This document shows positions 889 through 3,745 of a stretch of DNA of 40,128 nucleotides, one piece after another. Within the stretch, counting starts at the first letter, position 1. The number at the start of each line of letters is the position of its first letter. The stretch lies in the IMG/VR virus record IMGVR_UViG_3300031643_000004, positions 1-40,128 of that record, one strand, 5' to 3'. The notes below the pieces were generated by a model. The model was not told the origin of the DNA, ran no database searches, and was given only the letters and a program-made list of their open reading frames with translations. The stretch comes from a virus. A program made the position numbers and the translations under genes.

Positions 889-1133
889 CAGCAACCCTTA
901 AAAATACAGGCCATAACTGCGACAAACGCTATTAGCGATAACACGCCTAAACCCAGGCCAGCCTTGTAATAGTGTAATTCACTCCTCATCTTTTCCTCAC
1001 TGCCGTAAATCTCGTTTATGGTTAGCCAGTCAGTTCTACGGCATGAAACACCATCGCCCCAGCCTATGACTAGAGCGTGCCATTCCTGGTGCTCATTGAG
1101 AAATTCCTTTATCCACTTAAACGGCGGTATCAT
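888..1133 (-). CDS. Small protein with C-terminal membrane anchor
   Basis: 81 residues. The first 55 are polar, with tryptophans and charged residues. A hydrophobic segment (about residues 58-78) ends in a short KGC tail, so the protein is probably tail-anchored in the inner membrane. Its start overlaps the previous stop by four bases (ATGA) and its stop overlaps the next start. It could belong to a lysis cluster as a spanin- or antiholin-like factor, but no family is recognised. Confidence 0.7.
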   Translation of the reverse strand: MIPPFKWIKEFLNEHQEWHALVIGWGDGVSCRRTDWLTINEIYGSEEKMRSELHYYKAGLGLGVLSLIAFVAVMACIFKGC

Positions 1134-1408
1134 GTCACCAACTTATTCACAATATCCTGGGAAGACCAGCCAAATGTAAAGGCAAATACAAAGACATACT
1201 CACCCGAGACCGGGAAACTCGGCAGTATCAATATAGTGGTGATGAGGGCAACAATAAGGTTAAATACCAGCGTCCAGACGAATCTACTTTCCCACTTGAT
1301 TTGCTGCCCTAACTTTGCTGCCTCGCTTTTCTTCTTCAGCCAGGGATATACAGCTCTCAGGAAACAGCCCAGGAATATACCGAGTGCTACGATGATTTCG
1401 GTCTCCAT
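1130..1408 (-). CDS. Small multi-span membrane protein (holin candidate)
   Basis: 92 residues with probable membrane spans at about 5-23, 43-63 and 68-85, and a lysine-rich loop (KKKSEAAK) between the first two. The ATG at 1408 is chosen because an AAGGGGGTGA site precedes it; the GTG at 1414 would lie inside that site. The gene begins immediately after the hairpin terminator that ends the candidate RNA, so its expression may depend on read-through. A holin role is plausible from size and topology but not shown. Confidence 0.75.
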   Translation of the reverse strand: METEIIVALGIFLGCFLRAVYPWLKKKSEAAKLGQQIKWESRFVWTLVFNLIVALITTILILPSFPVSGEYVFVFAFTFGWSSQDIVNKLVT

Positions 1409-1420
1409 GCTCACCCCCTT

Positions 1421-1450
1421 AAATGCGAAAAGCCACCCTGAAAGGTGGCT
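1421..1450 (-). terminator. Hairpin terminator/attenuator before the small membrane genes
   Basis: A perfect 7-bp stem, AGCCACC/GGTGGCT (1431-1437 with 1444-1450), with a 6-nt loop. On the minus strand it is followed by TTTCGCATTT. The U-run is short, so termination may be partial. It lies right before the ribosome binding site of the gene starting at 1408. Confidence 0.65.
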
Positions 1451-1600
1451 CTAAAATGCAAGGAGCCTGACATCATTGCCAAGCTCCTCTCTCCATATTG
1501 CCCGAAGTCGGCTGGCCAAGCAAACTTCGGGTTCCCTAGGGATTGTTTAGTTCCGGGGACACACCCCGGCTTCCCGGGAGGCGCAGCTTTTCCACGCCTT
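1425..1600 (-). ncRNA. Candidate structured RNA, about 175 nt, with own promoter and terminator
   Basis: There is no convincing protein gene between 1409 and 1644. The minus-strand transcript can form successive hairpins. They pair 1579-1583 with 1595-1599 (5 bp), 1553-1558 with 1564-1569 (CCGGGG/CCCCGG), 1524-1531 with 1501-1508 (8 bp, perfect), 1477-1487 with 1462-1472 (11 bp) and the terminator stem 1431-1450. The 11-bp stem has two G-U pairs on the minus strand, which would be A-C mismatches on the plus strand, so the minus strand is probably the functional one. A TTGACA box lies 30 bases upstream. I do not recognise it as any known RNA family. Confidence 0.6.
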
Positions 1601-1606
1601 GTCAAT

Positions 1607-1636
1607 AGGGTAGCACGAATAATAAACTTTTGTCAA
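1607..1636 (-). promoter_or_regulatory. Probable sigma70 promoter of the candidate RNA and pre-late genes
   Basis: A perfect TTGACA -35 box (1631-1636), an 18-base spacer and a weak -10, TACCCT (1607-1612). Transcription would start near 1600. It begins right after the stop of the upstream gene (1645). On the circular map it is the promoter candidate nearest the late operon. Confidence 0.5.
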
Positions 1637-1644
1637 GCCCATTT

Positions 1645-2082
1645 TTACGACATTTTTATCGCTTTTTTGTGGTATTTCCGATCCTTTACCCAGCCAGAAA
1701 AAGACCTCGGTTTCCTATCCCAGCCAGCCACATAATACAAGGCATCTTTGGCGTTATCGCTGAGGTATATCATTCTATCCCGATTGATACATTCTTCTTT
1801 GAGAAGCAAGCCCCGCCAGCCGGTAGTTTCAATCCGAGAGTCTATTTCCGAGATAATCAGGGTTGCCTTCACAAAGCGCCCTTCAGTTATCGTCTGCCGA
1901 CCTCGAACTCCACCCTCAACCAAGCTTTCAGGAGAAGGCCATAACCCTTGTCTCAGAATCCAAGCATATTTTAACGCCCAGAAAACCTGTTGAGCACACC
2001 ACCTGAATTCAGAAAATGAATACCACTCTTTGCCAGGGCAGCCCTTCCAGCTTTTACACTTCCGGCAATCGAGCTCAGCCAT
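1645..2082 (-). CDS. Phage protein with N-terminal Cys cluster, possible regulator
   Basis: 145 residues. The N-terminus has a C-x-x-C-x-x-W-x-G-C-P cluster (C6, C9, C15) followed by a tryptophan-rich stretch. The C-terminus is basic. No strong Shine-Dalgarno site precedes the start. The position, just upstream of the pre-late promoter, is where many temperate phages keep a late-transcription regulator (ArpU/RinA type), but I cannot see a firm HTH. Function unknown. Confidence 0.7.
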   Translation of the reverse strand: MAELDCRKCKSWKGCPGKEWYSFSEFRWCAQQVFWALKYAWILRQGLWPSPESLVEGGVRGRQTITEGRFVKATLIISEIDSRIETTGWRGLLLKEECINRDRMIYLSDNAKDALYYVAGWDRKPRSFSGWVKDRKYHKKAIKMS

Positions 2083-3504: not shown

Positions 3505-3699
3505 TTATCGTGGTCTTTTTTGACCATCTAGTATTTCCCGCTTGTAGAAATTCTCATCAGCGTCCATCACTACGACACCGTTTGGTGCACGGTAAATATT
3601 ACTCTTCCTTATCAGATGAAAGATACCCTCCCAAGTAATCATCACCTTAGCTGTCTTGGGATATTTTGCAAGTTCCTCTCTTAATTCTCCTATGTTCAT
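3505..3699 (-). CDS. Small phage protein of the 'reduce to LREELAKYP' type, unknown
   Basis: 64 residues. The opening, MNIGELREELAKYPKTAKV, resembles the short early phage and plasmid proteins that start with a helix, then D/K-x-x-V and a strand. A TAGGAG site precedes the start. It is the first gene after an extended -10 promoter at 3737-3745, so it probably leads a small early operon. Function unknown. Confidence 0.65.
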   Translation of the reverse strand: MNIGELREELAKYPKTAKVMITWEGIFHLIRKSNIYRAPNGVVVMDADENFYKREILDGQKRPR

Positions 3700-3736
3700 T
3701 CTAATACTCCTAGCTTTATGCCTTCCATCTGATTCT

Positions 3737-3745
3737 ATTATATCA
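3737..3745 (-). promoter_or_regulatory. Extended -10 promoter
   Basis: TGATATAAT on the minus strand is a perfect TATAAT with an extended TG. No good -35 is visible, as is usual for this promoter class. Transcription would start near 3730, about 30 bases before the start of the 64-residue gene. Confidence 0.55.

Follow-up and report, generated by a model that had tools for sequence, protein, structure and literature searches.

A promoter-terminator module linked to a small regulator-like gene lies ahead of the late genes of an environmental phage and may form a lambda pR'-like late switch

The window, by which the whole stretch of DNA analysed is meant (40,128 nucleotides of IMG/VR virus record IMGVR_UViG_3300031643_000004), carries a compact module on its minus strand, in the gap between the genes at 1645-2082 and 1130-1414. 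Read in the direction of transcription, the module consists of a promoter, a second TTGACA, four hairpins and a terminator hairpin. The promoter combines a -35 hexamer TTGACA (1636-1631) with a -10 hexamer TACCCT (1612-1607), which fits the consensus at only three of six positions and is preceded by TGC (extended -10), the last bases of an 18-nt spacer. The second TTGACA (1605-1600) lies over the start site and is followed by hairpin 1 (1598-1580, seven pairs and a loop of five) at the 5' end of the predicted RNA, by hairpins 2 (1579-1533), 3 (1531-1501) and 4 (1489-1460), all with stable predicted folds, and by the terminator TTTTAGAGCCACC...GGTGG.TTTT (1456-1428, hairpin 1452-1429). For 1560-1425 the predicted minus-strand fold has -60 kcal/mol versus -41.9 +/- 3.7 kcal/mol in shuffled sequences (z -4.87), and the plus strand of the same segment gave a shuffle z of -4.29. 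It is the G-U pairs that favour the minus strand, most clearly at 1489-1460 (-19.7 vs. -11.6 kcal/mol). A preliminary description of this DNA had recognized an RNA with its own promoter, four hairpins and a terminator and had taken the G-U pairs as a sign of minus-strand transcription, and both points are borne out for 1636-1425. A search of Rfam at the gathering threshold and at E 5 returned no family for the leader. A conserved protein reading frame across the region, which the same description had named as evidence against its proposal, was not found; a frame is present at 1411-1605, but its DNA is missing in the relatives, and it was rejected as a coding explanation.

The first late gene behind the module (1130-1414, minus strand) encodes a membrane protein of 94 amino acids with hydrophobic segments, 85-87% identical in the related loci L002 and L003. 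The name holin-like, given to its product earlier, comes from hydropathy only, and no family was matched. Of the genes proposed to lie downstream, those for HNH and TerS could be identified, together with TerL. The ends of the window show no terminal repeat, and the circular join that had been used to place the module ahead of the late operon is without such support. The placement itself is supported by the gene order of relatives, since in L008 and L012 the upstream gene, the module, HNH, TerS and TerL follow one another on one contig and strand, within 4 kb in L012. As for the terminators expected within the late genes, a strong intrinsic one, AGGGAGCTCGGAGGCTCCCTTTTT (29668-29649, minus strand), separates structural genes of the late operon. 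The HNH endonuclease at 2133-2531 is 100% identical at the protein level to that of L003 (3983-4378) where the flanking proteins are 68-88% identical, and its gene has probably moved recently.

Relatives were gathered with the gene at 1130-1414, which led to L002 and L003, with the terminase, which added more, and with the gene at 1645-2082, which led to about 20 contigs. For the linkage test, all collected loci were searched with a profile built from the 1645-2082 family, and 16 loci with close homologues were obtained. A promoter of the form TTGACA-16/18-TANNNT was present at -32 to +242 nt of the stop of the upstream gene in 15 of these 16 loci, which are related to one another and are not independent trials; in the exception, L090, a similar doubled promoter is 919 nt off. 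All 15 promoters are followed by a terminator, 14 of them within 300 nt by script and that of L095 at about 310 nt, past a tRNA, and some modules carry two. The background, 1.87 Mb made up of both strands of the terminase contigs, contains 31 promoters of this form, of which only 2 lead into a terminator. In the 13 aligned modules, the -35 hexamer is exact and the -10 hexamer conforms to TANNNT throughout, and the module elements are unchanged among loci whose spacers and leaders have diverged. The terminator sequence TTTTAGAGCCACC is common to L002, L003, L093, L140, and L146 and occurs as a variant in L008, L086, L097, and L147. The run of U at its end has five to six residues in most relatives versus four in the window, for which reason the window terminator may be leaky and was missed by a simple terminator scan requiring five T. 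In L003 the DNA equals that of the window over 54 bases (1653-1600), through the second TTGACA, and is then wholly different until TTTTAGAGCCACC is reached.

Among the hairpins, conservation is limited to hairpin 1. Six of its pairs are formed in 100% of the cells of an alignment of seven relatives, and two compensatory double changes were detected, G-C to A-U and U-A to C-G, in what is a small set of seven sequences. Slid versions score much worse. This covariation was taken from alignment A5 only, because the MAFFT alignments A3 and A4 had mis-registered the shifted stem of L088 and L097. The covariation search proposed in the preliminary description was thus answered for hairpin 1, and hairpins 2-4 were without relatives to compare. 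Judged from these sequences, hairpin 1 belongs to the conserved module, and its repeat may be a feature either of the RNA or, as an inverted repeat, of the DNA.

The stretch between hairpin 1 and the terminator is a variable slot. Hairpins 2-4 are absent from L002, L008, L093, and L097, which share the promoter, the terminator and the late operon, and the slot is empty in these four and in L146; the leaders of L002, L008, L093, and L146 consist of a single short hairpin. In L003 the slot is occupied by an additional terminator and in L088 by different hairpins. L095 (764-835) and L086 (3777-3848) carry a tRNA there, recognized by Rfam in both cases and also by ARAGORN in L095. In L096 a decayed tRNA-like copy of which only the T arm is recognized lies at about 3665-3745, so that in these three loci tRNA-Met (CAU) genes or their remnants are found inside a terminated late leader. 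Blastn of the hairpin region 1460-1579 against 50,697 phages returned no relative covering it. From this comparison, the 120 nt of window-specific hairpins are one more filling of this variable slot.

An exact second TTGACA is found 27, 28 or 31 nt past the first in 10 of the 13 aligned modules, with offsets of 28 nt in L002, L008, L093, L095, and L146 and of 31 nt in the window. The background of TTGACA at other offsets is low, and the doubled hexamer persists in modules whose spacers have diverged. It is missing in its exact form from L097, L140, L147, L012, L091, and L102, where promoter and terminator are present. Use as the -35 hexamer of an overlapping promoter was ruled out, as there is no -10 hexamer at 16-18 nt. 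No -10-like pause sequence (A2/T6-type hexamer) is conserved 3' of the second TTGACA, the window having AAGGCG and L003 TCGCGG. Because the start site, at the usual distance, falls on its last bases, the second TTGACA would work as DNA and not as RNA. When the doubled promoter was used as the sole criterion, a scan of all viral contigs yielded 38 stretches, including six known modules and a new locus, L189/L165; a terminator is present in both L189 and L165, and in L189 the upstream gene was recognized once more (E 2e-30). Most of the remaining stretches, which are without terminator, are probably due to chance. The same pattern scan brought up four unrelated AT-rich viral contigs (L107, L112, L114, and L118) that share a repeated element, TTGACAATGTGGGC(C/A)AAATATGCCC, followed by TTGACAA, probably a coincidence or another promoter family.

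The upstream neighbour of the module (1645-2082, minus strand) encodes a protein of 145 amino acids (family A2) with an N-terminal Cys cluster that is missing in the most distant family members. Its structure is predicted to be all-helical with moderate confidence (AlphaFold2, mean pLDDT 76.6). No sequence match was found in Pfam, which includes RinA/ArpU and other late-regulator families, in PHROGs or, by hmmsearch, among PDB sequences, and two AlphaFold models gave no usable Foldseek match in PDB folds or BFVD. Neither in sequence nor in fold does the product match the known Q proteins (lambda, 21, 82) or AlpA, and no relatives were found in genome contigs or in the 50,697 phages. Distant homologues in L100 and L103-L105, mostly without the Cys cluster, have an extra helix-turn-helix-like stretch, and beside their genes the promoter-terminator module is missing. 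It is the position of its gene that makes the 145-residue protein a candidate antiterminator or late regulator. Another candidate close to the late switch, a small LuxR/GerE-type DNA-binding protein at 2713-2973, was rejected as a partner; it is present only in the window, L002, L003, L093, and L096 and is therefore less consistent than the 1645-2082 product.

Lambda late transcription offers the nearest comparison. In the lambda genome (NC_001416), the order is Q, the promoter TTGACT-17-TAAATT-TGACT (28 nt), the leader, the terminator and the S holin gene, and in both phages a regulator gene (in the window a candidate), a promoter, a short leader (6S in lambda) and a terminator (tR' in lambda) precede holin or lysis and packaging genes. 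The second TTGACW directly 3' of the -10 hexamer is also shared, at 28 nt in lambda, where both copies read TTGACT, and at 31 nt in the window. The differences are that a -10-like pause sequence, present in lambda and 21, is not conserved here, that a hairpin lies at the 5' end of the RNA, that the regulator protein is unrelated and that the window leader carries 120 nt of cargo hairpins. Lambda Q requires the -35-like sequence at pR' and stabilises sigma region 4 there; such a sequence is reported absent from other lambdoid late promoters, including 21 pR', and the Q regulators of 21 and 82 likewise load at a promoter that a terminator follows (PMC6606751). Pseudomonas AlpA also loads at a promoter with a terminator behind it (PMC9371919). 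The module agrees with 21/82 Q and AlpA in this arrangement and differs in that its candidate protein has no sequence or Foldseek match and, as regards 21 pR', in having the -35-like sequence. All 15 modules keep a promoter that runs straight into a terminator, located ahead of late genes and beside one small regulator-like gene, and this corresponds to the layout of promoter-loaded antitermination as in lambda Q and AlpA. Our preferred reading, for which we regard the chances as about even, is that the module is a late switch like lambda pR'-tR' with the 1645-2082 product as its antitermination factor. Antitermination, already suspected in the preliminary description, remains the likely theme.

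The same linkage between gene and promoter, and the same repeats, would be expected if the upstream protein were a conventional activator or repressor in the style of RinA/ArpU that recognizes, as DNA, either the doubled TTGACA or the inverted repeat underlying hairpin 1, with the terminator only shielding the late operon against early leakage and against read-through from upstream. RinA and ArpU are small regulators encoded by the last early gene, adjoining the late genes, which is the position of the candidate gene at the early/late border; the conserved hairpin 1 doubles as an inverted repeat in DNA, and weak -10 hexamers (three to four of six positions) would suit an activator. However, a terminator placed downstream of the promoter and ahead of the genes would cut the activated transcript as well, and it is kept in all 15 modules, and the lack of a Pfam or PHROGs match sets the protein apart from the described late-regulator families. 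We consider an insulated activator or repressor unlikely, if the most serious of the alternatives.

Less probable again is that the module serves in the early phase as a gene for a small RNA, whose leader delivers cargo, hairpins here and tRNA-Met in relatives, and that the late genes are fed mainly by leakage or by another promoter. The variation of the cargo, with tRNAs among it, and the high stability of hairpins 2-4 would agree with such a gene, but the many cargo-free relatives retain promoter, hairpin 1 and terminator, and hairpins 2-4 have no relative in which selection would be visible.

The preliminary description had likened the four-hairpin RNA to HK022 put, an RNA that spans about 70 nt, folds into two stem-loops and acts in early operons without a protein (PMC9378689). 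A leader RNA that itself makes polymerase resistant to terminators is very improbable here: the position of a structured RNA right after a promoter and ahead of an operon with terminators, the stable hairpins and the compensating changes of hairpin 1 recall put, but in relatives the terminator is often preceded by only one short six-pair stem, their leaders lack or replace hairpins 2-4, which are confined to the window phage, and put itself works on early operons, so that a conserved put-like RNA is not supported. Gene order and the position of the second TTGACW over the start suggest that the comparison with lambda pR' and Q fits better.

Under the preferred antitermination reading, the host RNA polymerase with a sigma-70-type factor would initiate near 1600 on the minus strand, and most transcripts would end at the terminator (1450-1428) as a short leader of some 170 nt. 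At a late stage of infection, a phage protein, for which the 1645-2082 product is the most likely candidate, would load on the polymerase at or just past the promoter, where the TTGACA copy over the start site might help to hold sigma region 4 or the loading protein. The modified polymerase would then pass the leader terminator and later ones and transcribe the late genes, from the holin-like one through HNH and terminase to the structural ones. Hairpin 1 would belong to the switch, and hairpins 2-4 would be cargo inserted into the slot.

It is possible, at somewhat less than even chances, that the 1645-2082 family is a new class of Q-like antiterminators, structurally unrelated to the known ones and using a doubled -35 element, and that the leader serves as an exchangeable slot for early cargo RNAs, tRNA-Met in some phages and the three-hairpin RNA here. 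Promoter-loaded antitermination has evolved repeatedly, as the lambda, 21 and 82 Q proteins and AlpA show. If the reading is true, the doubled -35 of lambda has been re-used, in a family outside the phages studied so far, with an unrelated small protein, which would reveal the essential parts of such a switch and provide a ready test set. The turn-on of late genes in these environmental phages would then be explained, and the leader would be marked as a site where phages park small RNAs.
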